Assembly (NCBI RefSeq): GCF_040144835.1
Contig: NZ_CP151632.1
Coordinates: 3,658,001 to 3,722,000 of the forward strand
Length of the DNA stretch: 64,000 nt
From: Microbacterium sp. LWS13-1.2
GTDB taxonomy: Bacteria; Actinomycetota; Actinomycetes; Actinomycetales; Microbacteriaceae
Direction: 5' to 3'
Below, one piece after another: positions 50,384-64,000 of the stretch (position 1 is its first letter; every line of letters starts with the position of its first letter). The position numbers and the translations under genes were made by a program. The notes beneath the pieces were generated by a model. It was not told the origin of the DNA and did no database searches. It worked only from the letters and a program-made list of their open reading frames with translations.

Positions 50384-50892
50384 ACGTCGCCAGCCCAGTG
50401 GCTGATGACGGTCCGGCCGCTTCGCAATCGATGCATGCACTACGGGGCGCCAGCGACACTGGTCGGACTATCACCCGATCTGCCGGGTTACGGTTTGGTC
50501 GACGCTACTAGCCCAGGTACCACGTTCAGCGAGGTCGATCGTGCAATGGTCGACACCCTCCTCGAAATCTCGGATTCGTTTGGTGACGTGCCACATTGAA
50601 CACCCCGTGGGGGGCAGCCTCGCGGCTTCGCGTCGCACTGAGCGTTACGCGACGCACTGTGGGTGACGGAATACGAGGTTCCGCGCACACCGCGGCGTTG
50701 CTTGCGAATCAGTACGTGCGCGAACTCATCATCCGGCTGACCGCGGGCTCGGGTGAATCGATGGCCAAGTTGAAGCCCGAGAGCTACACCGCAGGCACCC
50801 CGCACGCGTTGCCGCCGGCCGCCTTTCGGCTCAAACAATTCGAGAGGCCGGCCTAGAAACGAGGACTCATCTACCGAATCGAAAAGACGGTT
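50384..50892. other. Gap with only weak short frames
   Basis: After the beta-helix gene there is no convincing gene for 509 bp. Two short plus-strand frames (50405-50599, ending FGDVPH, and 50596-50856, ending QFERPA) overlap ATGA-like but match no family I recognise. Composition is less GC-biased than in the neighbours, suggesting decayed or acquired DNA. Confidence 0.5.
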
Positions 50893-51363
50893 CTAGCCGG
50901 ATGCATTGGACTCGAGTCGTTCGTGCGGTGTCTGCCACCCGTCCGCTTCCGGCAAAGGGAGCATGAGCGGCGGGAGCCCCGCCCGGGTCATCGCGTCGAC
51001 CAGGGAGCGTCGATGGTACGGATCCACCAAGCGGCGAACGAAGTCGAAAGCGCCCTCGATCTCGCCGTCGGCGACCAGGAGTGCCCGCTCGTCGAGGATG
51101 GAAAACTCCACGCGAACGTTGCTTGAGAATTCGAACGCGGGTTCATCACTTTCCTCAGCGCCCGGCACAGTGATCGTCAACTCTGAAAAGAAGACAGTCG
51201 GACTGGTCTCCTCCGTGCTGATGTTCTGACCAACTTGCGCACGCTGAGTCGGGTTGACACCGAAGTTCCGGGAATGCCTGGTGGATGGCTCAGTGATAGA
51301 CCGCAATATGAGATCGACCACAGTTGGCGCTTCGGTGATGCAGGAACTCGCTCTACCGAGCAA
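50893..51363 (-). CDS. SecB-like protein
   Basis: A 156-residue frame. The C-terminal part FDFVRRLVDPYHRRSLVDAMTRAGLPPLMLPL follows the SecB pattern, in which 'YxREx..DL..R..LPPL.L' ends the fold, and the middle strands (ITVPGAEESDEPAFEFSSNVRVEFSILDE) fit the beta part. SecB-like chaperones in actinobacteria are known from toxin-antitoxin-chaperone modules, but no toxin-antitoxin pair is seen beside it. The start is uncertain: TTG 51363 as given, or the GTG that opens VVDLILR. A moderate-confidence fold call. Confidence 0.45.
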   Translation of the reverse strand: MLGRASSCITEAPTVVDLILRSITEPSTRHSRNFGVNPTQRAQVGQNISTEETSPTVFFSELTITVPGAEESDEPAFEFSSNVRVEFSILDERALLVADGEIEGAFDFVRRLVDPYHRRSLVDAMTRAGLPPLMLPLPEADGWQTPHERLESNASG

Positions 51364-52529
51364 GACATTATTGCCTGAAAGGACGCACTGCTGGCGGAGT
51401 CCACCGAGCGTGCATTCTCATCGACATGTTCGTGTAACGGAACCACGGCTCCGCCAGCGATTGATTGCCGCCCCGTCGCCTGCGACGAGATCAAGAGTCC
51501 ATCGAAGCCACCTGCCTCGCCTACAAAGGAGCAGCGGTATATGTGCGATCGTTCGCTTCCTGGTTCGATGCCAGGCTGGGGGGTGGCTGAGCGCGCGTAA
51601 GCACCTTGACGCCGTCGCGACGCCGTCGGCGGGGACAAGTCAACTCTTGACCGTCGTTGCTCGTCGCGCCTACCGTGGCGGTGCACTCGAGCGCGGCGAG
51701 CATCCTGCCGACCGTTGCTACGTGGAAGTTGCCATCCCCGTTGAGAATCTCGTCCACACCCTCCACGAACACACCGAACCCGCCCGCCCCGAGCTCTACC
51801 TCACCGCTTGACCATCACCCACCATGGAGCAACACGAGTGACACCACGCCACGGGACTTGACCATGTCCAGTTTGGGACCGCACGTCGCCGGGTTGGGTT
51901 GTCGTGGCTAGACACTCGCAACGACCACGCACCCGGCATGGCACCCCGGTGCATCCTGCCTCCGTGCATCCTGTCTCGAAAGTCTGGGCAAGAAGTGGGC
52001 AAACTTGTACTCTTCTTGACATCCTCGGAGCTAAAAAAGCCCCGCGACCAGGGATTTACCCGCAGGATACATCGACGCGACGGCGGGAGTCGAAACTGCG
52101 GTCGGGCGGATCTCTGTGTGGCTCGGGAAGCGCGGAATCTCGCGAGTTGGGGGCGTCTTGCCGCGGAAAATCAATGATCTCTCGTCAGCAATCGCGCTCT
52201 GTGTTGTTCCGTCTCGATCAGGGAAATTGGGCTCGATCTGCGCGGCTTGTGTCCACCTGGTGTCCACACTCGGTCGGCAACGTGGTCCCCCCACGTGGCC
52301 CCCGCGGAGAGGCGCGTCGAGCCAGTCGCGCGTATGTGTGCGACCTCGGGTCCACCTCGCTGGAGCCCTCCAACGATGCTGACTCGTGCTGTGGATGCCC
52401 CACATAGTCAGCCCACGGCGGGTCCGGTACCTGTTGCGCCGGGGATGTTGAATCCCGGGCGGCACCGTCCCGCGTCCCGCCGCGATCGGACGAGTTGCGG
52501 CCAAAGCGAGGGTCGAAAATCGGGCCTAC
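51364..52529. other. Gene-poor island boundary
   Basis: In 1166 bp no frame has a family-like protein, a good ribosome-binding site and consistent codon use. Third-position GC bias is weak on both strands. A T-arm-like stem (CCTGG-TTCGATG-CCAGG) at 51559-51575 and a terminator-like hairpin near 52033-52056 are the only structures. Probably decayed DNA between the catabolic locus and the defence island. Confidence 0.5.
52033..52056 (-). terminator. Possible terminator of the helicase operon
   Basis: On the minus strand AAATCCC, an intervening loop and GGGG are followed by C and six T residues. It lies about 475 bp beyond the HelD-like stop codon, in the right direction for that operon. Confidence 0.4.
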
Positions 52530-54488
52530 TCATCGACGTAACGCGTCGGGGAGCGGCTTGATGTGAATGACGACGAGTTCACGATTCGCGCGTGTAAGTG
52601 AGGTGTACAGGGGCCCCTGCCGACCGACGTTCATCGGGAAATCAGTGGGCTCCACCACCACCACCGCGTCGAACTCGAGCCCGCGTGCAGCGTTCGGGCC
52701 GAACACGCGCACCGTCTTGCCATTGAGGGACCAGACTTCGACGTTGCCGTGCTGCCCTTGCCAACCCCGGGCACGAAGGAGCGTCCGAATGGTCTCGAAA
52801 TTTGGGGAGATTACGGCAGTGGTTCCGGACGGGTAGGCCTCGAAGAGCCGCGCCAACTGGCTAGTGATAGCCAGACCGAGATCGTCAGATGAGGTCCGCA
52901 TCACGACGGGGATCGGGCCAACTTTCTGGAACGCGCGAATCTTTCGTTCTGGTCTTGGGAGCAGCTTGTTCGCGTATTCGAGAATCGGGCGGGTTGAGCG
53001 GTAGCCGCGATCGAGCTGTCTGAACGCAACGCCGTCGTAGGAGACGTCGATCATCTCGAGCACCCTGTCCCAGTTATCGAACGTGTGGTCTGATCGGCGT
53101 TGATTGTGATCACCGAGGATCGTCCACGTTCCCGCGTTGATCGACTCGAGCAAGAACCACTCGAGCGAGGTCATGTCTTGCGCTTCATCCACGATGGCAT
53201 GCGTGACGTTCGAGAGGGACCTGTGCTGCGTGATCGTCCATTTGATGAGGCTGATCAGCGCGGCGTGGGCGCGTACTTGCAAAGCCTGCGGATAGTTCGG
53301 CAGATCGACGAGGTAGGTTGCCCATTCCTTGTCGTGCGTCAGCGGCAAATCGGGTTTCCCATTAGCTCGCAGGTAGTCGTAGACCTCATGGGCGGCGATC
53401 CCATGCCTGCTCTTGGCTCGTAGCCTCGAGGCCGCGGCACGAGCCATGCTGCCGAGCTCCCAGTCGCAATCTCGCCATGTGGTCGAACCTGGCCCCTTCG
53501 GTGGAACCTTCGAGCCAAGCAGGAGCACAGCGAGTTCGATCGTTGAGAGAACATGGATGCGATCGTTGTCCTCGACGAGGTCACCGATCACCCCTCGAAC
53601 GTGCTGCGAGTACCCGACGGTCGGTCCGACGATGAGGACGTCGCCTATGGTTGCGTTTTCGCCAGCCTCATGGTTGAGCAAGTACGCCGCGCGATGCGTT
53701 GCGACGATAGTCTTCCCGGTGCCAGGCGGGCCCTCCACGATGAGGTTCTGATCGGCCGGGTACGAGACGAGTTCGTACTGGTCTGGCTGCAGAGTGGAAA
53801 GTACAGGTCGTAGGGACTTGCCGCGCGGAGCTTCCATGCGTGACCGCAGCACGGCCTCTGCGCGGATCAGCGGTTCGGCTGCGGGCGTCGATACAGTCGG
53901 CCGCCTTTCCAGGTCTGGTGCGGAAGTCCCTTGAGGAGGTACCGCGAGCGGCGTCACTACTTGAGGTGCCGGCGGCGCGGATGGCCGTGGCCGCGGCAGC
54001 GGGCGACGTCTCGCGTCGGGCGCAGGATTCGGGATTGAGAGTGCGCGCTTCTCGAACGGAACCTCAAGTACGCCATCCCGAATGACATCTTCTGCGAGTG
54101 TCTTGATCTCACCATTGGGCTTGTGGTCGAAGGATCGGATCACGGCAACGTCATCACACCATTCGTGATGTGCGGTGCCCTGATAGAACGTGCATGCGAC
54201 GGGTGCTGCCCAACTGAATACTTCGACACCATCGAGCTCGACATGCCGTTCGCCGATGTAGAAGTCATTCCTTCCACCGAGCATGTCGTTTGGATGCGTC
54301 AGCGCGACGCGACCTAAGAGGTATCCAAGTGGTGCGGGCGGGAACTTTGGACGACCATCGCCCGTCCACTGGGTGTTCTGCGGGCCTTCATATTTGATCG
54401 GTGCGCGTGCTTCATCCCTCACCCGCTGCGAGTACCGGCGCTGCGCCGCGCGTTCATCTTCGAGCGCAAGCTTCAGCTCATCGTTCAC
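52530..54488 (-). CDS. HelD-like superfamily 1 helicase
   Basis: A 652-residue protein. The N-terminal portion has the HelD-type pattern LLGRVAL..., NDFYIGERHV, VFSWAAPVACTFYQ. A Pro/Ala-rich linker (about residues 165-205) follows, then an SF1 core with Walker A GPPGTGKTIVATHRAAYLL (about residue 251), Walker B/II HAIVDEAQDMTSLEW, motif IV-like QLDRGYRSTRPI, and C-terminal GLEFDAVVVVEP and YTSLTRANREL. HelD proteins release stalled or idle RNA polymerase. The GTG start overlaps the SNF2 stop codon, so the two are made together. Likely part of a defence island. Confidence 0.82.
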   Translation of the reverse strand: MNDELKLALEDERAAQRRYSQRVRDEARAPIKYEGPQNTQWTGDGRPKFPPAPLGYLLGRVALTHPNDMLGGRNDFYIGERHVELDGVEVFSWAAPVACTFYQGTAHHEWCDDVAVIRSFDHKPNGEIKTLAEDVIRDGVLEVPFEKRALSIPNPAPDARRRPLPRPRPSAPPAPQVVTPLAVPPQGTSAPDLERRPTVSTPAAEPLIRAEAVLRSRMEAPRGKSLRPVLSTLQPDQYELVSYPADQNLIVEGPPGTGKTIVATHRAAYLLNHEAGENATIGDVLIVGPTVGYSQHVRGVIGDLVEDNDRIHVLSTIELAVLLLGSKVPPKGPGSTTWRDCDWELGSMARAAASRLRAKSRHGIAAHEVYDYLRANGKPDLPLTHDKEWATYLVDLPNYPQALQVRAHAALISLIKWTITQHRSLSNVTHAIVDEAQDMTSLEWFLLESINAGTWTILGDHNQRRSDHTFDNWDRVLEMIDVSYDGVAFRQLDRGYRSTRPILEYANKLLPRPERKIRAFQKVGPIPVVMRTSSDDLGLAITSQLARLFEAYPSGTTAVISPNFETIRTLLRARGWQGQHGNVEVWSLNGKTVRVFGPNAARGLEFDAVVVVEPTDFPMNVGRQGPLYTSLTRANRELVVIHIKPLPDALRR

Positions 54489-57400
54489 CGCGCCCCCTCC
54501 GGCACGAGCTTCACAACGCATGCAGCAAGGGGCTCGAGCAGAATCTCGGGCTGGCGCTCGTTTGCGAGCTCATTGGTAAGGCGCGCGAATCGACTTTCCG
54601 CTCGGCGGCGCTGACCATCGAAGAGCTTCATTGCCTTGGGGCCACGTTTGTTGATGCGGGCCGTCTCAATGCGCTTCTCGATGGTGAGGAGTCGGCGCTG
54701 ATGCTGGTCGGTGAGCGTGATTCTCCGTGCCTCCAACAACGCATCAAACTCGCGGTCCCTTCGGTCCTGCTCGTCGGCGTGCCGAAGCGCAAGCTCATCC
54801 AAAGCGCGCTGAGCGATGTGAGGCAATCGTTCGACCTCAGTAAACGGATGATCGGCCAGTTGCCCCTGAGCAAGCGCCGCGAGTACCGCGTCCGCGGCAG
54901 AGTTGTTCGCAGGCCGCCCGTCCAATCCCACCGCGGCACCCCAGATCTCGTCACCGCCTCTGGAGGCGGCGACCGCCTTCGCGAGTACGACGACGAAGAC
55001 GGCGTCGGAATCTATCGACGGAGACTCGACCCGAAGGGATGCGAATCTGGCCTGCCGGTGGCTGGGAACCTCGGCAGCTGCCATGGCCAGCGGGCTGGTG
55101 GCGTTGAGGAGCACGCCGCCTGTCTTGCGTGCGAGCTCTTGATCAAGCACGAGGTGGATCGGCACCTCGTTGCGAAGTTGTGAAGAGAACGCAGCCGTTT
55201 CGGCGCGAGTGCGTTGAGACCTCTTGTTGAGCTCGTCCACGCGAGCTGCCATCGCCGAGTTGCCACGCAGCTCCACCGTCAAGCCATCCCGGGCGAATCG
55301 GATCCCTTGTGCACCATCCACCCGCGCCCAATGATCGACAAGCAGGGCAAGCTCGCGCTGGCCAAGATAGCGGCCGCTCCGGAGCAGGTCATCTTCGAGT
55401 CCTGCGACGTCGACGTCGTTGCTCACCAGGAGGCTGCTCGCGGCATCCGCGACATCCTTGAGGCCAGCACGCTGCTCTTCGAGCGCGAGGAGGGCCTCGT
55501 GCACCTTCTGCGCGCGTTGAGCGTCGTCAAGGGTGAAGTCGAAGCCGGCTTTCAGGACCTCAGGTGCTGCCGCAGCGATGATGGGTTCCAGCGCACCGAT
55601 CGATGACTCGAAGATCTTGATCCGTGTAAGGAGCCGCGCCAGGATGCGCTCGTCGATTGTCCGATCATTCACGAAGTTGACGATGAGCATTGTGTCTTCG
55701 GGCTGACCAATTCGATCGATGCGGCCGATTCGCTGCTCGATCTCCATCGGGTTCCACGGCAGGTCGTAGTTGATGACCGCCGAGCAGAACTCGAAGTCGA
55801 GACCCTCGCTCGCGACACGGTTGGCAAACACAAAGTCGAATGCACCAGCTCGGAACTCGGACATTATGGTTCGTCTCTGGTCTCGACTCACACCACCGTG
55901 CATCACGCCGATGCGGAACTCGTTCTTGAGCCGCGATTCGAGATACGCAAGCGTGGGGCGGGAGAACGTGAAGAGCAGCGCGCGCCGATTCTGGAGCTTG
56001 AGGTTGCGCAGCGACGCCCGCAGCTCATCGAACTTGGTGTCGACCGTGTCGCCCAGACGACGAGCCGCCGCGACGAGCGCAGCGTGCGGCGCGACGCGGC
56101 CGACCGCGTGGTCGTCATCCTCGTCCGTGACAGTTCCGAAGTGTTCGGGGTCTAGCACCGCCTGACGCGCCATCGGAAGACACGCGCTCGCGAGCCGCAG
56201 GGGCATCTGCATCGAGAAGTACAGATTGCTGTCCATCTCTCGTGCACGTGCCTTGCACCACTCTACGTACTGCTCGTAGAACTCGAACTCTGCGGCGGTC
56301 CACTCGACGTCGTGGCGGTCTTCCGTTCGCTTGGCTTTCCGTTCGTCGACTTCGACCTTCTTCGTGCGGGTGATGACTGCGGAGAGCGTGTTCAGGTCCG
56401 CGAGGTACCTCTTCGCATGGATTACGTCGGACGCGTCGAGTGAGGGTTTCGAAAGCAACTCGGTGAGCAGCTCGAACTCTGGTCGACGCATGATCGACGC
56501 ACCGAATGTGCTCCTTTCGAGTCGCTCCAGTGTTCTGAGAACTTCGCGTCCTCCCGCACCCGGGCGCACAAGGTCTGCGGCGGCCGTGTTTATCACGGCG
56601 TTTGGTTCCAACCGAAGGTTGAGGTCCCAGATGCTGCCGAAATCTTCGGGAGCAAGAAGCTCGAGCAGGCTCAGAAGATCGCCCTCACCCAGGTTGATTG
56701 GCGTAGCGGTCAAGAAGACCAGGTTGTCTGCCCAGTCGGCGAGCTCTGTGCCCAGTGAGTAGTTCTTGGTGGTTGGGTTGCGCATCGAGTGCGCTTCGTC
56801 CACGATCACGAGATCGAACTCCGGCGGGAGATCCTCCAACTGTTCGAGACCGCTCCAGCGTCGAAGTCTCTCGATGCTGCAAATGTAGGAGAGCCTGGGT
56901 GGAAGGCGGTTCTCGAGGTGCCGATTGAGGAACTGATCGAGACTCTGGTTATCGAGCTCGACAAGCTCGAAGCCGAACCGATCCTCCATCTCCTCTTTCC
57001 ACTTGCTAAGAAGGTTCGAGGGGCAAACGATGAGGACTCGGTCCGCCTCGGTCCGCGCCTCTAGTTCGGTCCAGATCAAGCCCGCCTCGATCGTCTTACC
57101 TAGCCCGACTTCATCGGCGATGAGAAGTCGGGCCTTCCCCGTCTGAAGGAGCTTGAGTACCGGCTTGAACTGGTACGGGCGGAAAGTGGTGCGGGTCGCT
57201 CGAAACGAGAACAAGGTGTCCGCGAACTTACCGCGAAGCTTCGCTCGGGTCAGGGTTGCGCCAAAACTCGCGGCGTCGGTCGGCGGTTCGAGCACCCAGG
57301 TCGTGGGATCGTCGTGGGCTGGCACCGGTCGAAGTCGAGACTCAACGACGTCCTGCGGTCGACCGTCGATCACGACAGAGTACGACCAGCTGTCGCGCAG

Positions 57401-57847
57401 GAACTTCCGGGCGCGCACCACGACGTCCGCACCGCTCGGATGCGTTATCGCAGCCTCGTTGACAGCGAAAATCGGCGCCGGCACCTCGATAGCGGATGTC
57501 CATAGCGATTCTGCCCACTCCCACGCATTCGCCAGGGGGTCATCATCGGCTAGGTCAGCGAGCTCCACGACCGACGAATCCGCCGGCGCTTTGCCGATTC
57601 CGACCTGAACCACAAGGTTCCCGTCGTCAAGACCCTCGAACCAGTAGACGCCTTCAGGAAGCGGGGGGTCAGCTCTCCACAGCACACGACAGTTGGAGAC
57701 CTCGTCGGCCACGCCCCGGACCGCGGTGTCCAAGATCAGGGCGCGATCGAAGCGCCCACGGGCAAGCGGGAGATCCAGCCCGTTCGAATCCGGGTGATAG
57801 CCGAAGGTCGGCCCCACTGGATCCAGGTCGTGCTTCGACGAGGTCAT
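54485..57847 (-). CDS. RapA/HepA-like SNF2 helicase
   Basis: A 1120-residue ATPase. Motif I is LLIADEVGLGKTIEAGLIW (about residue 243), motif II VIVDEAHSMRN (about 349), motif III LTATPIN, and motif VI EQRIGRIDRIGQ (about 704). FANRVASEGLDFEFCSAVINYDLPWNPM is typical of RapA/HepA, the SNF2 enzyme that recycles RNA polymerase. A long helical region lies between the lobes, plus a ~300-residue C-terminal domain of unknown role, rich in D/E/R/K (EEQRRDREFDALLEARRITL-like). N-terminal ~200 residues unrecognised. First gene of an operon with the HelD-like helicase. GGAG precedes the ATG. Confidence 0.85.
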   Translation of the reverse strand: MTSSKHDLDPVGPTFGYHPDSNGLDLPLARGRFDRALILDTAVRGVADEVSNCRVLWRADPPLPEGVYWFEGLDDGNLVVQVGIGKAPADSSVVELADLADDDPLANAWEWAESLWTSAIEVPAPIFAVNEAAITHPSGADVVVRARKFLRDSWSYSVVIDGRPQDVVESRLRPVPAHDDPTTWVLEPPTDAASFGATLTRAKLRGKFADTLFSFRATRTTFRPYQFKPVLKLLQTGKARLLIADEVGLGKTIEAGLIWTELEARTEADRVLIVCPSNLLSKWKEEMEDRFGFELVELDNQSLDQFLNRHLENRLPPRLSYICSIERLRRWSGLEQLEDLPPEFDLVIVDEAHSMRNPTTKNYSLGTELADWADNLVFLTATPINLGEGDLLSLLELLAPEDFGSIWDLNLRLEPNAVINTAAADLVRPGAGGREVLRTLERLERSTFGASIMRRPEFELLTELLSKPSLDASDVIHAKRYLADLNTLSAVITRTKKVEVDERKAKRTEDRHDVEWTAAEFEFYEQYVEWCKARAREMDSNLYFSMQMPLRLASACLPMARQAVLDPEHFGTVTDEDDDHAVGRVAPHAALVAAARRLGDTVDTKFDELRASLRNLKLQNRRALLFTFSRPTLAYLESRLKNEFRIGVMHGGVSRDQRRTIMSEFRAGAFDFVFANRVASEGLDFEFCSAVINYDLPWNPMEIEQRIGRIDRIGQPEDTMLIVNFVNDRTIDERILARLLTRIKIFESSIGALEPIIAAAAPEVLKAGFDFTLDDAQRAQKVHEALLALEEQRAGLKDVADAASSLLVSNDVDVAGLEDDLLRSGRYLGQRELALLVDHWARVDGAQGIRFARDGLTVELRGNSAMAARVDELNKRSQRTRAETAAFSSQLRNEVPIHLVLDQELARKTGGVLLNATSPLAMAAAEVPSHRQARFASLRVESPSIDSDAVFVVVLAKAVAASRGGDEIWGAAVGLDGRPANNSAADAVLAALAQGQLADHPFTEVERLPHIAQRALDELALRHADEQDRRDREFDALLEARRITLTDQHQRRLLTIEKRIETARINKRGPKAMKLFDGQRRRAESRFARLTNELANERQPEILLEPLAACVVKLVPEGAR

Positions 57848-57930
57848 GTCATCTCACTCCATTGATAAGTCGCAGGAGGGTGCCCATATGGGACCGGACA
57901 GCCCCCAGAGCTGACGATCATCAGAATGCT

Positions 57931-57960
57931 ACGGGGTGCGGCCGACAGGCCGCACCCCGT
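57931..57960 (+). promoter_or_regulatory. Strong hairpin between divergent helicase and IF2_N genes
   Basis: Perfect 13-bp arms (ACGGGGTGCGGCC and GGCCGCACCCCGT) with a GACA loop are followed by TTGT. The hairpin ends 26 bp before the IF2_N-protein ATG. It looks like a terminator, but no gene ends here: both neighbours start from this gap. It may be an attenuator or an operator. Confidence 0.6.
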
Positions 57961-57986
57961 TGTCGCGCCGTGGGCAGGGGAGCGGC

Positions 57987-59000
57987 ATGCGGAGCATTAG
58001 CGACAGCGAAGGATGGGTCGACTACGGTCGAGTCAAGATCCATCAGCCGACCGAGGACGGTGGTGTGGTGCCGAAGCCCCCGAAGCCCCGCGTGTACGAA
58101 ATTGCGAGCGAGTTCGGCGTCTCTACCGAGGTCGTCCTCGAGAAGTTAGCCACCCTCGGCGAGCCCGCGCCCGACCAGTTCTCGCCGCTTCAGCCGGAGG
58201 TAACTCGAAAACTCCGTGCTGCCCTCGAAGAGAGCTCACCTGGGCAGGCGACGCGGGCGCCAAGGGCACCGCTACAGCGCGCGCTCGAAGCTGTGAGTCG
58301 TCGCGTGAAGCCGCGAAAGCCGCGTGTACACGAGGTCGCCGACGAGTTGGGGATCGATTCGCGGGTCGCACTGGCAAAGCTCAAGGAGCTCGGTGAGTTC
58401 GTCAAGAGTCCTTCGTCCACCCTCCAGCCTCCCGTCGCGCGCAAGCTGAGAGCTGCGATCGAGGCTAACCGCTCGATTGGCTCTACCGCGACGGAGGCTC
58501 ACCACGACCCAGTCCCACCGTCCTCCGGAGCCAGCGAAACGCGTGCTCCGACGCCCGCCGCGGCTTCTCCGCCCACTCGTCCCGCGAAATCTCGGGTGCA
58601 TGAGGTTGCCTCAGAGTTCGGAGTGGATTCGTCGGTTGCGCTCGCGAAGCTCAAGGAGCTCGGCGAATTCGTGAGAAGCCCCTCATCGACACTCGAGCCC
58701 CCGGTCGCACGAAAGCTGCGGGCCGCCCTTGAGGCTGATGGCGCAGCGCACCTGAGCAGGATGGGCGTTGTGGCGGAGCTCAGCCCATCACTTTCGGGCG
58801 TCGACGCGAGGCAGCAGGGTGCCGAATCAACGCGTCCTGGTCCCCGCCCGCGTGTGCATGAGCTCGCGGCCGAGCTTGGCGTCGACATCGCCATCGTGTT
58901 TGCAAAGCTCAGAGATCTCGGGGAGCCCGCTCGAAACCCCTCTTCCGCATTGGATCCCTCCGTAGCGGTCAAGGTCAGGGCCGAGCTCCGCGGCGGCTAA
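57987..59000 (+). CDS. Protein with four IF-2 N-terminal domains
   Basis: A 337-residue protein with no GTPase domain. Four repeats of the IF2_N fold lie at about residues 35-81, 113-159, 203-249 and 289-335. Repeat 3 reads [20 protein letters not shown], then [20 protein letters not shown], then KLRAALE, nearly identical to the N-terminal domain of actinobacterial translation factor IF-2. Repeats 1 and 4 are more diverged. Pro/Ala/Ser linkers separate them. The first 30 residues ([19 protein letters not shown]) are unrecognised. GGGGAG precedes ATG 57987. Divergent from the SNF2-HelD operon and convergent with McrBC, so probably part of the same island. Confidence 0.85.
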
Positions 59001-59224: not shown

Positions 59225-60283
59225 TCAGGCGGCGACTGGAGCGAGCCAGTCGAGCACGCCCTCGAGTCGGGCAGCGATCGATTCCCAAGGTTGGTTCAGG
59301 TCAAGTGTCTGAGCACCGATTCTGTTTCCTTGGACGATCACGTCCAGGTCCGGTTGAGCGGTTGCCTCGGTCTGTGCGTAGAGCAGGAGGCCGCTCACCG
59401 CGCCGGTGCGCTTACGATCCTCGTTCTTGACATACGCAAGGACCTGATACAGGTTGCCAGAGTGGACGGTCTCCTTTCCGCTCAGACCCTGTTGGAGAGT
59501 GTGGCCGTAGTACTTGGCGTCGATGATGAGCGTTCGGTTCGCGGAGCGTAGCGTGACGTCGGTGCGCATCTCCGGTAGCTGTCCGCCGAAGAGACTTGGC
59601 TGATCGAGATCCCACGTAATGACGCGCGCTCCCGGGGAGAGTTCGGGATGGTGGAAGGCGTAGTACTCGCGCAAAAACCGCTCGTAGAGGACGTTCATCC
59701 TCTCGTCGGGGAGCCAACTCGCAAGCCGCGCAGCGCCCGCGGACTCGGTGGGGAGTAGTCCGCGGATGATGAGCTCGCAGACGCCGAGCAGGAGCCGATA
59801 GGACGTGTTCGATCGGTGGTACGTGAGCGACTCCCAGCTAATCGACCTCGGCGCGATTGAGGTCACCGTATCGAGATAGGGGAGCACCCGACGGAGTGCG
59901 TCCTTCCGTGGCGTGGACACCTCGCCGTGTCGGATGAGAAGGATGATGGCAGCTTTCAGCGCCTGATTGTGGGGCGTGTCGATGTCGTACTCGTCGAACT
60001 CGCACACCAGACGTCCTCGCGTGATCGAGCGCGCGCTAGCCGTGCGTCCAACGTTGATGCGACCGCGTACAGTGGCCAGTTCTTCACTCACCGCGAGGTA
60101 GTCGCGATGGAGGCCGCGCTTGACCTGTGTGCCGACGCCGAAGGCAAGGATCTCAGCAAGGAGATCGTGCAAGTGATCGAACTTCTCGCTCGCGATGCGA
60201 TCGGCACCTTCGTTGCGCACGGTCCTGAACGCGTACGCGAGCATGACGTACACGTTCCGGATGACGATGCTGCGGTCGATCAC
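59225..60283 (-). CDS. mcrC: McrC-family restriction nuclease subunit
   Basis: A 352-residue protein. The family start IDRSIVIRNVYVMLAYAF lies at the N terminus. The PD-(D/E)xK core is formed by EMRTDVTLRSANRTLIIDAKYYG (D...DAK), preceded by LYERFLREYYAFHHP. McrC is the nuclease subunit that cleaves DNA when McrB translocates from a modified site. GTG 60283 is chosen because it overlaps the mcrB stop codon (GTGA) and places the family start correctly; a longer frame begins at 60313. Confidence 0.88.
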   Translation of the reverse strand: MIDRSIVIRNVYVMLAYAFRTVRNEGADRIASEKFDHLHDLLAEILAFGVGTQVKRGLHRDYLAVSEELATVRGRINVGRTASARSITRGRLVCEFDEYDIDTPHNQALKAAIILLIRHGEVSTPRKDALRRVLPYLDTVTSIAPRSISWESLTYHRSNTSYRLLLGVCELIIRGLLPTESAGAARLASWLPDERMNVLYERFLREYYAFHHPELSPGARVITWDLDQPSLFGGQLPEMRTDVTLRSANRTLIIDAKYYGHTLQQGLSGKETVHSGNLYQVLAYVKNEDRKRTGAVSGLLLYAQTEATAQPDLDVIVQGNRIGAQTLDLNQPWESIAARLEGVLDWLAPVAA

Positions 60284-62514
60284 GCGATGGCGCCCCGCAA
60301 CCTGGTTGACCACTTCTGGGCCACGTCGGGCTCGTCGAACCAGTACTCGTCGAGGAGGGGAACGAGTTCATCCTCCACGACGGAGTAGAGCCATTCGTCG
60401 GCCAGCTCATCGTCGGGCGGTGCGCTCAGATAGCTGTGTCCGACAGCAAAGCCCGGTCCGAGCGCCGGATCCGCCGTGATGGCACGGTTGAGGTCGAGGA
60501 TGACGCCGATCAGCGCATCGAGCGCAGGGCTCTGCACCGACTGTTGCCAAGATGTAAACCCGTTCGAGTCGAAGCCGGGGGCCATATGAAAGAAGCCGAA
60601 GCGTCTGCGCAGCGCATAGTCGAGGACCGCGAGGCTCCGGTCGGCGGTGTTCATCATCCCGATGATGTGGACGTTCGGTGGGACTGAGAACTTCTCGTTC
60701 TTATATAGGAGGCGCAACTCCTGGCCGCGCTTGTCTGCCTCGATCAGCATCAGGAGTTCCCCGAGGATCTTGGAGATGTTCCCCCGGTTGATCTCATCGA
60801 TGATGAAGAAGTACGGACGATTGACGTCGTCCTTCCGTGCTTCTTCACAGAAGCGGTAGAACGGGCCCTCAGCGAGCGTGAACCCGCCAGACTCGGTCGG
60901 GCGGTAGCCCATCATGAAGTCTTCGTATGAGTAGCTCTGATGGAACTGCACCATCTGTACCCGAGGAAGATCCTTCGCGCCCATGATGGAGAAGGCGAGC
61001 CGCCGGGCTGCGAACGTCTTCCCCACTCCCGGCGGACCGGCGAGGATCACGTTCTTCTTCCGCAGCAGGAGCCCACGGAGCCGCTCGTATGCATCCTCTG
61101 TGACATACACCTCGTCGAGGAACGCTTCCCGGCTGTATGACGGGGGCGGGGTCACGAGTTCGACTTCTTCGTGGTCGTCGTCCTCCTCGCCTGCGAAGAG
61201 TGCCTCAAGGTTCCCGACGTAGTCCCGGTAAGACGTGATGTCGGTCAGGGTCTTCACGGCGGCGTCACCGGGATGCACCCACGAGCCAACGTGAGTCCAG
61301 TTCACGGAGCGAACGTGACGGAACTGCCCGCGCTCGGGCTCGAACCTAGCTTCAGAGATCACCTCCCCTCGACCGACGAGTTCCCGCCTGCCGCGCTTGG
61401 CGTAAACGACGTCGCCTACCGCGATCTCGTTCTGGAACTGCCACAGGCAGAGCACGTCATTCTTCAACGACGACGTGGAACCGGATGCTGCTGCCAGATC
61501 GACTCGGATTGCTTCGCGGTCCGGATACCCGGCGAGATCGCCAACCTCATCCCAGCCGAGCGCCATGATTCCCTCGGCGCGAAAGGAGTCCCACTCTGAG
61601 GCTTGCGCCCCCGGTGAGTAGAGCCAGTGGTGCCGTGGACGCGGCTCGTCAACGGTGGGCTTCGGGGGCTTCACGGTGTCCCACATGGCACGGACATTCG
61701 GAGTCCAGAAGTGGAACGGCTCCGCTATCTCTGCGGCCAGTGACGCCCGGATGGCAAGCAGATCGCGATCCAGGGACTGAGCGTCAACGCCGCTAGCCCC
61801 GCCGATCCGGTCGGCAAGTCCAGTGCGGATCTGCGTCTTCATGTTCACCGACGAGATCGGCTCAAACACGTCAGGGAACGCGAGAAAGAGCATTGCATTG
61901 CGGATGTCGGGGGTTCCGTCCCCGATGTCGAGCATGATTTGCTGGACCTGCCACGGGTGGCCCACCGCGCCTCTGCGCTCCTCATCTGACAAGCCCCGCC
62001 ATTCACGTACAAACGTCGCTGCCCAGATCAGGTGAAGCCAGAGCCGACCGTTGTAACCCTGATTGCCTGCGAAGCCTGCATCGCCAGAAGGCCGATCCAG
62101 CGCGTCGTTCATCCATTCCGGAATCTCAGGGACCGGCTCGGCCAAGTTCAGGACCCGAGTGAGATGCTGTCGGCGTGTTGCCGGTGAGGCGTTCGAAACC
62201 GGCTGCTCACGCAGGAAAACCAACTCAGCCGCCATCAGCACGACGTCGCGCGAAGCACCCGCGAGCTGAAGCTCGAGCTTGTCCCACTGGCCGGCATCCG
62301 GGCCGATCAGCGGATTGTCCTCGATCCGTCTGCGCAGGTCTTCAGCGGCCGCCGCTGTCCAGACGGTCACTGCTGGATCGATGACCGACCGACCGTCCCC
62401 CAGCATGTGGTTGAAGACTTCAGCAACCTGCCGCGCAACGGCCATGTCCGCTTCGGGGCGGGACGGCAATGCGATGGCAATCGTGTCTGCGTCATCGGGC
62501 AGGGTGTTCGCCAT
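60280..62514 (-). CDS. mcrB: McrB-family GTPase with EVE-like reader region
   Basis: A 744-residue AAA+ GTPase. N-terminal ~290 residues are helical and unrecognised (NGRLWLHLIWAATFVREW, WTPNVRAMWDTVKPP). At about 295-400 is an EVE/PUA-like modified-base reader pattern (HHWLYSPGAQASEWDSF, MALGWDEVGDL, then LWQFQNEIAVGDVVYAKRG). The AAA+ core has Walker A GPPGVGKT (about 492), VQFHQSYSYEDFMMGYRP, IIDEINRGN and MNTADRSLAVLDYALRRRFGF. McrB recognises modified DNA and drives McrC. GGAG precedes ATG 62514. Overlaps mcrC. Confidence 0.9.
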   Translation of the reverse strand: MANTLPDDADTIAIALPSRPEADMAVARQVAEVFNHMLGDGRSVIDPAVTVWTAAAAEDLRRRIEDNPLIGPDAGQWDKLELQLAGASRDVVLMAAELVFLREQPVSNASPATRRQHLTRVLNLAEPVPEIPEWMNDALDRPSGDAGFAGNQGYNGRLWLHLIWAATFVREWRGLSDEERRGAVGHPWQVQQIMLDIGDGTPDIRNAMLFLAFPDVFEPISSVNMKTQIRTGLADRIGGASGVDAQSLDRDLLAIRASLAAEIAEPFHFWTPNVRAMWDTVKPPKPTVDEPRPRHHWLYSPGAQASEWDSFRAEGIMALGWDEVGDLAGYPDREAIRVDLAAASGSTSSLKNDVLCLWQFQNEIAVGDVVYAKRGRRELVGRGEVISEARFEPERGQFRHVRSVNWTHVGSWVHPGDAAVKTLTDITSYRDYVGNLEALFAGEEDDDHEEVELVTPPPSYSREAFLDEVYVTEDAYERLRGLLLRKKNVILAGPPGVGKTFAARRLAFSIMGAKDLPRVQMVQFHQSYSYEDFMMGYRPTESGGFTLAEGPFYRFCEEARKDDVNRPYFFIIDEINRGNISKILGELLMLIEADKRGQELRLLYKNEKFSVPPNVHIIGMMNTADRSLAVLDYALRRRFGFFHMAPGFDSNGFTSWQQSVQSPALDALIGVILDLNRAITADPALGPGFAVGHSYLSAPPDDELADEWLYSVVEDELVPLLDEYWFDEPDVAQKWSTRLRGAIA

Positions 62515-62652
62515 TCTCGGTGCTCCAACGCTCTCGCTACGTTCCACCGCACGGGACGCGATCGAGGAACGAGTATCAGTTGACCGTATCGAGTTTCGCG
62601 GTTCGAGGAGACGCGATGGCCGCGCCGTGTCTCCTTCCGCACCGATTGACGC

Positions 62653-64000
62653 TCATCCCGACATCGGACGGCCGTGCACGGCGGCGCCGATCGACTCAAG
62701 GCTGCTGTTGACAGCATGGGTGGCGTCGATCAGACCCTGAACGCTCTGGTCAGGTACTTTCACATAGCGGTAAACGAAGTCGGGCGCGAAGTGGCCGAAG
62801 TGCCCGCGTGGCTTTGCATCGCTGTCGGGCGACGCAAGGATGTCCGATAGCGACGTGAGATCGAACAACTCAGGATGCTCAGAGGCGAACGCCTCCCGCG
62901 CCTGCCTGTCCGCAACGGACCGCCCGGAGAGGTGGGGGAGGACTGCGCACAGTCGAAACTGTCCCTCTTGGTACTGCCACCCTGCCTGAATCTCGACGCC
63001 GTCCACGCTGATGTGTCGCCTCCAGCCGACAAGGGGATGTCCATGGCTGATGGCTGCTTCCGTCCAGCCCACACCGGGGCCTTCTGCGGCGAGTACCGTT
63101 TGAACCCGGCGAGCACGGAGCTTTCGGAGCGCTGTGCGGGTCTGCGACGAATCGATCTCCGCGAGTTCGGCGCTATCCAACCACGTGGATTCGCTAGGCG
63201 AGTGGACAACGGTGGTGTCCAACAATGCGCTCAGAAGCCGGACGACGCGGGAGTAGCGACGGATGGTCTCGATCTCGTAGCCCTCGGCCTCGACGTCTCC
63301 AAGTGCTACGTCAATGCGTTCAGCGAGATCCTGATAACTCAGATAGTTCCAACCGTCGATGGGTTCACGGGGCGAGGACATGCTCAGCAGAACGTGCTGG
63401 GAGGCGGCGCCCTTCCACCGGGCTGTTTTGGCACGGTACTCGTGCAGCTGGTTGGCTTCGGGAAGCGAGAACACTTTGTTCTCGATCACGAGCGGTGCAG
63501 CGTCGGGCCAATGCAGGACGAGGTCGAGGTTCTCGCGTTCCCGCTCCACGTGTCGGTGACGGGTCGCGTCGTCTTCGATGTCCACGGAGAGGTCACGGAA
63601 GACGGCGTCAGCGAGCTCCGGTAATGCGTCGAAGAACCACGCGAGGAAGTTGCTGTGGAACAACTCGCGCTGCCCGTACATGATGCGTGCGAGCGGCTCG
63701 ACATTGAGTTCGCGAGCGATGACCCCGACCGGCTGCTGTTCGCTCGGAGGGATTCCGTCCAGATAGAGACGCACGGGGTTCGCGGCACCTCGCGGTGGTG
63801 CAAGGCGCTCGACGCTTGTTCCGACGACATGCAGCTCCGGCGCTGGAACGCCGTGGAAGCCCCAACGCCCTTTCGCGTCCCCAGAATGCCATGACTCGAT
63901 CCGATACGCGCCGCGCACGACCCCGCCCGCGACGCCGAGTGCATAGACCGCGCGCTCCCGCGTAGTCGCGCCCACCTTCCAGTACATGCGCGTTGCGTCG
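62653..64000 (-). CDS. PD-(D/E)XK nuclease-family protein, partial
   Basis: The frame is still open at the window edge, so the 5' end is missing; ATG 63987 is probably internal. The first ~70 visible residues (YWKVGATTRERAVYALGV, YRIESW, GRWGFHGVPAPEL, GAANPVRLY) form a domain recurrent in restriction-type nucleases. Next comes a PD-(D/E)XK core: HSNFLAWFFDALPE, LDLVLHWPDAAPLVIENKVFSLPEANQLHEYR, with Asp and E-N-K. The C-terminal ~200 residues are unrecognised. It lies 138 bp upstream of mcrB on the same strand and may be a third component of that system. Confidence 0.75.
   Translation of the reverse strand, partial: DATRMYWKVGATTRERAVYALGVAGGVVRGAYRIESWHSGDAKGRWGFHGVPAPELHVVGTSVERLAPPRGAANPVRLYLDGIPPSEQQPVGVIARELNVEPLARIMYGQRELFHSNFLAWFFDALPELADAVFRDLSVDIEDDATRHRHVERERENLDLVLHWPDAAPLVIENKVFSLPEANQLHEYRAKTARWKGAASQHVLLSMSSPREPIDGWNYLSYQDLAERIDVALGDVEAEGYEIETIRRYSRVVRLLSALLDTTVVHSPSESTWLDSAELAEIDSSQTRTALRKLRARRVQTVLAAEGPGVGWTEAAISHGHPLVGWRRHISVDGVEIQAGWQYQEGQFRLCAVLPHLSGRSVADRQAREAFASEHPELFDLTSLSDILASPDSDAKPRGHFGHFAPDFVYRYVKVPDQSVQGLIDATHAVNSSLESIGAAVHGRPMSG

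Follow-up and report, generated by a model that had tools for sequence, protein, structure and literature searches.

A co-inherited pair of SNF2 and HelD-like motor genes that looks like an unnamed anti-phage module of Actinomycetota

Results

Organization of the locus

The window (the whole stretch of 64,000 nucleotides that was analysed) comes from a complete genome of 4.33 Mb; near 50 kb the window's GC content drops from ~0.70 to 0.62, a low level that persists to the window end. Within this island lie an SNF2 ATPase gene of RapA/DrmD type (54485..57847, minus strand, 1120 aa), followed on the same strand by the second gene of the pair, encoding a HelD-family SF1 motor (52530..54488, minus strand, 652 aa from a GTG start), and a divergent gene for a tetra-IF2_N protein (57987..59000, plus strand, from an ATG start). 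Next door are McrC (59225..60313, minus strand) and McrB (60280..62547, minus strand) of a type IV restriction system, both recognised by Pfam and NCBIfam, and a PD-(D/E)XK protein (62653..63987, minus strand) that matches PDDEXK_4 and, weakly, the PADLOC candidate PDC-S26. All the genes named in the original prediction are present, including the McrBC neighbours. To the right of the window the same island continues with PglW, PglX and PglY/BrxC (L052:5884-17317, about window positions 69783-81216), a cluster that we take to be type-2 BREX. Integration at a tRNA was considered and rejected, no tRNA gene being found in the window and the adjoining 40 kb on its right. At the island edge, ~2.1 kb (50384-52529) hold no convincing gene in the ORF list.

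The HelD-like ORF runs from its first ATG over 52530-54521 (minus strand, 663 aa), and the database copy of the protein is 652 aa long, in agreement with the GTG start at 54488. This GTG overlaps the SNF2 stop codon by 4 nt (GTGA) behind GGAGGGGG, an arrangement that makes the translational coupling of the two genes, which had been asserted at the outset, plausible.

The SNF2 protein

Pfam recognises SNF2-rel_dom and Helicase_C domains in the SNF2 protein, and its helicase motifs appear intact by eye (DEVGLGKT, VDEAH, LTATP, QRIGRIDRIGQ). Its assignment to the RapA/HepA type stands for structure, less so for sequence. In comparisons with the AF2 model RapA is the best structural match, over residues 179-1119, and the structural alignments to RapA begin at residues 177-179; the profile comparison gives 27% identities over 605 aligned columns and is weak N-terminal of those same residues. 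The NCBIfam models, in contrast, score the protein at 167 bits for RapA and 334 bits for DISARM DrmD, both below cut-off (610 for DrmD), and the PADLOC DrmD model PDLC02623 scores it at 411 bits, as against 167 for HmaA; DISARM, BREX and Dpd models of PADLOC also match. Judged by these scores the protein is closer to DrmD than to RapA, from which it further differs in being encoded by an accessory, patchily distributed gene and in having an N-terminal region that is only weakly comparable. A ResIII match reflects a helicase-domain family and not a nuclease, and no nuclease domain was recognised in either protein of the pair, the ends of the SNF2 protein having been scanned within the whole protein.

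The HelD-like protein

HelD is the best structural match of the second protein over its entire length (1-652), and both the SF1 motor motifs and the overall HelD fold are kept; the NCBIfam HelR/HelD model scores it at 135 bits, far under cut-off. The original description as HelD-like thus holds for the motor and the fold, but not for two parts of HelD. In the available text of PMC8655204 the DWR motif of the HelD N-terminal domain is described as absolutely conserved, and the N-terminal arms of actinobacterial HelD proteins as short in any case. The DWR motif is found at none of 17 HelD-like loci (the window and 16 relatives, the broken locus L041 being left out), the W of that position being kept at 15 of them. 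The distance from Walker A to DEAQ is 175-193 aa at all 17, compared with 313 in the other HelD of the same genome and ~328 (by hand count) in 6yxu_H, so that the protein is short by ~130-150 residues where HelD carries its RNA polymerase-opening arm. In the predicted model compact helices occupy residues 316-420, with the clamp arm absent there, and the N-terminus consists of a single helix (3-28) and a low-confidence stretch, followed by a beta domain. Taken together, the sequence and the model indicate a HelD-derived motor without the clamp arm (the domain 1A insert) and without DWR. The other HelD of the genome (G000:C1:3317163-3319133, L048) has DWR and the full spacing, and lies in one open frame, though one TAG was reported within its match.

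The tetra-IF2_N gene and the divergent region

The ORF of the divergent gene opens at GTG 57936; the ATG at 57987 is the better start, since the upstream GTG sits within a 13-bp hairpin, and it places the gene 139 bp from the SNF2 start, as originally stated. The hairpin is a perfect inverted repeat (57931..57960, plus strand; 57931-57943 and 57948-57960, 4-nt loop) between the SNF2 and IF2_N genes, with a folding z of -4.5; no further copies of its core half-sites exist in the window. A reading as a terminator was rejected, as the T run is absent.

Four IF2_N units are found with a profile built partly from the window protein, and three significant stretches with Pfam. Units 2 and 3 are 80-81% identical to an IF2_N domain of the host's IF-2, and units 1 and 4 are 60% and 54% identical. 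Among 58 database matches the best is a metagenome protein, P0243 (190 bits; 54% identity over 61%), the next scoring 86 bits; P0243 alone repeats the unit among the 6 sequences inspected and the 10 scanned with Pfam, which gave one IF2_N stretch in each of the 10. No match was found in phage records, and plasmid records yielded 8 matches of single-domain size, one of them annotated as IF-2. The IF2_N domain also occurs within AAA/STAND-type ATPases and a HATPase-DUF4325 protein of the database (P0282, P0298, P0299 and P0287; for P0298 and P0299 the fusion is taken from the match listing), which suggests that IF2_N may be a reusable module.

The pair is rare but repeatedly co-inherited

A profile scan of genome contigs with the HelD-like alignment gave at least 7 loci; in all 7 listed an SNF2 gene lies directly upstream, and it is from these that the frequency of orphan HelD-like genes was judged. 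With the SNF2 alignment, matches were found in at least 8 of 248 genomes of the order and at least 8 of 394 of the class (E limit 1e-100), and in at least 2 of 200 and at least 3 of 201 genomes of two families (E limit 1e-200); these counts are lower bounds, the best 2 or 3 candidates having been scored in most genomes. The positive genomes overlap between searches and amount to 16 distinct ones. A HelD-like gene adjoins the SNF2 gene in 11 of them (G000, G049, G103, G232, G397, G428, G436, G443, G444, G473 and G786, with broken frames in G428). It is absent beside the weaker SNF2 matches of G005, G134, G144 and G749 (378-678 bits), and in G163 the locus is cut by the contig end. The pair is therefore rare, being found in at least 4 of 248 genomes of the order and at least 7 of 394 of the class, and none of 11 other same-genus genomes in the survey has an SNF2 match.

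Besides the window, 17 pair loci were collected (L007-L013, L029-L031, L036-L041 and L045). Their HelD-like genes score at least 566 bits with the HelD-like profile, except for the pieces at L041 (318 and 295); among non-members the other HelD of the genome scores 173 bits and a UvrD-type gene at L044 scores 131. Both genes have intact frames in the window and in 16 relatives, the one exception being L041, where each gene is split into two ORF pieces. Co-occurrence was also apparent in database records: 33 exact contig sizes were common to 120 HelD-like and 118 SNF2 rows, whereas jittered controls averaged 0.33 such sizes and never exceeded 4. One of the 33 is that of the window's own contig, equal size does not prove adjacency, and two of the 120 SNF2 rows (P0199 and P0212) were left out, their sizes being absent among the HelD-like rows. 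The distance matrices of the two proteins over the 17 intact loci correlate at 0.925, a value reached in none of 2000 permutations, although such a correlation could arise through shared descent as well as through co-evolution. These results support a repeatedly co-inherited pair that is no housekeeping locus, in keeping with the initial expectation for a defence module.

The IF2_N gene does not share this distribution. With a profile that detects both the host's IF-2 and the window gene, all 17 other pair loci came out negative for IF2_N (at least 5.0 kb searched on the SNF2 side and 0.2 to 10 kb on the HelD side). The co-occurrence proposed for all three genes is thus borne out for two of them. 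The arrangement of three genes was discarded as a conserved unit; the IF2_N gene probably lies next to the pair module without belonging to it, its nearness to the SNF2 start being a matter of chance or, it may be, of shared regulation.

Carriage of the pair by phages is unsupported. HelD-like matches were found neither in viral contigs (pattern-based search) nor in plasmids, and SNF2 matches were weak or partial: one in viral contigs (27% over 91 residues), 5 plasmid records (31.9-35.2% identity, 51-58% covered) and 3 metagenomic phage records (30.6-33.4% identity, 55-65% covered).

Defence genes around the pair

PADLOC models were run on 49 neighbouring proteins, which had been selected for size and adjacency to the pair, at a limit of 1e-8 (1e-15 for a 10-protein set chosen partly for BREX-like sizes), and matched 36 of them (8/10, 7/9, 5/10, 10/10 and 6/10 in the separate sets; the 10/10 set includes three proteins from the window's own flank and three from L047, the stretch beside L040). 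The controls were the two largest ORFs from each of 10 stretches of 20 kb in ten genomes, nine pair-bearing and one (G005) with a weak SNF2 match only; 3 of these 20 matched, two at L060, on the same contig as a pair and ~18-38 kb from it, and one, GlgB-like, at L059, likewise on a pair contig. The enrichment near defence genes that had been anticipated was therefore observed, and 15 of the 17 relatives have at least one PADLOC-positive neighbour, the evidence being weak for L011 and L031 (kinase or HNH matches) and for one L045 match (a TAP-like protein model); some PADLOC models are generic. At L010 neither of 2 neighbours matched, one of them being an amidohydrolase gene 18 nt upstream; at L036 the single protein tested did not match, and the pair is flanked divergently by McrBC relatives (5e-47 to the window's McrB and 6e-13 to its McrC by BLAST).

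The identity of the neighbours varies. BREX genes lie near the pair at L012, L045, L040/L047 and in the window flank, Druantia DruE at L037, Hma at L039, and type IIG or other methylases at L009, L013 and L041; further neighbours are Leo (L040), Lmu-like (L030), PDC-S37 (L008), PDC-S68 (L038), NERD/UvrD (L007), and HEC-05/06 and ZacC (L029). Two loci form tight runs of five genes: HmaB, a GmrSD_N protein, HmaC, SNF2 and HelD-like on the same strand at L039, and methylase, a second SNF2, SNF2, HelD-like and a GmrSD_N protein at L009. In mechanical ORF lists no same-strand gene lies within ~100 nt of the pair in the window, L012, L029, L036 and L045, which argues that the pair can stand alone. 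The pair thus mostly sits among known defence genes, and it is this context that supports a defence role. As a separate observation, GmrSD/DUF262-like genes recur near the pair, at L009 and L039 (GmrSD_N, Pfam) and at L045 and L029 (shared PADLOC models).

Comparison with described systems

No named system with an SNF2 and HelD-like pair was found in PADLOC-DB or NCBIfam, and no report of it among the listed matches of searches in open-licence papers, where the word 'held' blurs matching; the original prediction likewise knew of none. The main text of a paper on defence in Actinobacteria (PMC10482375) does not contain the words helicase, SNF2, DISARM or DrmD, and the available part of PMC10952713 lists SNF2 and UvrD domains across known systems, the pair not being among them.

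The closest described relative, as far as the available text of PMC12458937 goes, is ARMADA, in which, likewise, a single defence operon encodes an SNF2 ATPase of RapA/BrxH type together with a helicase of the UvrD superfamily. ARMADA type II consists there of ArmA (RapA domain), ArmB (a PglX-like methylase), ArmC (YprA-like) and ArmD, a GajB-like UvrD protein with a RelE-like domain; the SF1 protein of the pair, in contrast, is HelD-derived. Unlike in ARMADA, neither a YprA-like helicase nor a methylase lies beside the pair in the window, and the genome's PglX is found in the BREX cluster outside the window and not with the pair. YprA carries MZB and DrmB carries MZB/DUF1998; no MZB match was found in the whole genome at E 0.001, nor, by that measure, a DISARM DrmB. 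DISARM DrmD is the nearest family model of the SNF2 protein, whose partner, unlike in DISARM, is a HelD-like motor, and neither DrmA, DrmB nor DrmC was the best match of any of the 8 other window proteins and 3 flank proteins scanned. Hma comprises a helicase, a methylase and an ATPase in the accessible portion of PMC8565338, and at L039 the pair sits with HmaB and HmaC where the helicase would be expected; L039 is the only such case among the sampled neighbours of the 17 relatives, and HmaB and HmaC are not beside the pair in the window.

Discussion

Together, the two motor genes resemble an anti-phage module that has yet to be named, and the reading to be preferred, with somewhat better than even confidence, is that of a two-gene, DNA-acting anti-phage cassette of Actinomycetota to which the IF2_N gene is a bystander. 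The joint defence module proposed originally would accordingly be reduced to the pair. Its joint function is drawn from genomic context, and the mechanism is tentative. The SNF2 protein would track along double-stranded DNA of the phage. The HelD-derived motor, which would no longer serve to open RNA polymerase, would unwind DNA or strip bound proteins, working at forks or stalled complexes, with the outcome that phage replication or transcription is stopped. The missing clamp arm and DWR suggest DNA, and not RNA polymerase, as the target of the motors. As no nuclease domain was recognised in the pair, any DNA cutting would come from neighbours (McrBC, BREX, GmrSD-like or restriction-modification), beside which the pair may in some genomes serve as an exchangeable helicase arm; the standalone loci together with the L039 and L009 runs point to a cassette that is complete as two genes yet can also be recruited in this way. 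A more specific form of this proposal, offered as speculation, is a two-gene immunity without a nuclease in which RapA and HelD, RNA polymerase recyclers of different lineages, were re-tooled and joined, the SNF2 protein finding or tracking invading DNA and the armless HelD removing transcription or replication complexes from it.

It is conceivable, if less probable than an autonomous cassette, that the pair is not autonomous at all but only supplies an interchangeable helicase arm to systems based on methylation (Hma, BREX, type IIG), taking the place of HmaA, BrxH or DrmD and inert without a partner methylase or ATPase. The five-gene runs at L039 and L009, with methylase and GmrSD_N genes, would fit such dependence, as would the methylases near L013 and L041 and the BREX genes near L012, L045, L040/L047 and right of the window; however, the pair has no close same-strand gene in the window, L012, L029, L036 and L045, its partners vary between loci, and the methylases were met within a neighbour sample. 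It is rather unlikely that the defence is aimed at RNA polymerase, with two counterpart recyclers ejecting polymerase from phage DNA or blocking a phage-modified polymerase. RapA and HelD are the best structural matches of the two proteins, and HelD is termed a functional counterpart of RapA in the available text of PMC8666675, but the HelD-like protein has no room for the clamp arm, DWR is found at none of the 17 loci, and the predicted model shows one N-terminal helix where a long arm might be expected, although the arms of actinobacterial HelD proteins are short in any case. Likeness to RapA need not imply RNA polymerase either, given that the SNF2 protein matches DISARM, BREX and Dpd models and that ARMADA, too, has a RapA-type protein (PMC12458937, available text).

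Lower still is the probability of an ordinary HelD of RNA polymerase recycling or rifampicin tolerance (HelR), or of a DISARM remnant, without a defence role of its own. The nearest NCBIfam models are indeed HelR/HelD and DISARM DrmD; the scores fall far under the curated cut-offs, though, a further HelD of the genome carries DWR and full spacing (one TAG reported), no MZB match was found in the genome, and broken frames are confined to one of the 17 relatives, those of the window being intact. In contrast to HelD/HelR recycling motors, moreover, the HelD-like protein lacks DWR and the clamp arm, and its gene follows an SNF2 gene at all 7 loci listed, of at least 7. That all three genes form one system, with the tetra-IF2_N protein as its sensor or disruptor of translation, is highly improbable. 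The 139 bp divergent intergenic region with its strong hairpin, the two units 80-81% identical to host IF-2, which could act as a mimic, and the fusion of IF2_N elsewhere to AAA/STAND-type ATPases and a HATPase protein would accord with it, but a profile able to detect host IF-2 and the window gene finds IF2_N at none of the other 17 pair loci. Of the transcription-translation interference first suggested, the translation half is thus not sustained, IF2_N being absent elsewhere, and the RNA polymerase half is weakened in part by the missing clamp arm and DWR.

Many anti-phage systems, among them BREX, DISARM, Zorya, Gabija and ARMADA, contain motors of SNF2 and UvrD type, whose role there is still debated. 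A two-gene DNA-acting cassette made of motors only, with no nuclease recognised, would allow a direct test of that role; and, if this reading is true, HelD, a known RNA polymerase recycler, entered immunity after losing its polymerase-opening part. Programs that search for defence systems are likely to list the SNF2 gene as a lone DrmD and to overlook its HelD-like partner. One database protein of 1100 aa (P0007) appears by eye to consist of two tandem HelD-like copies.
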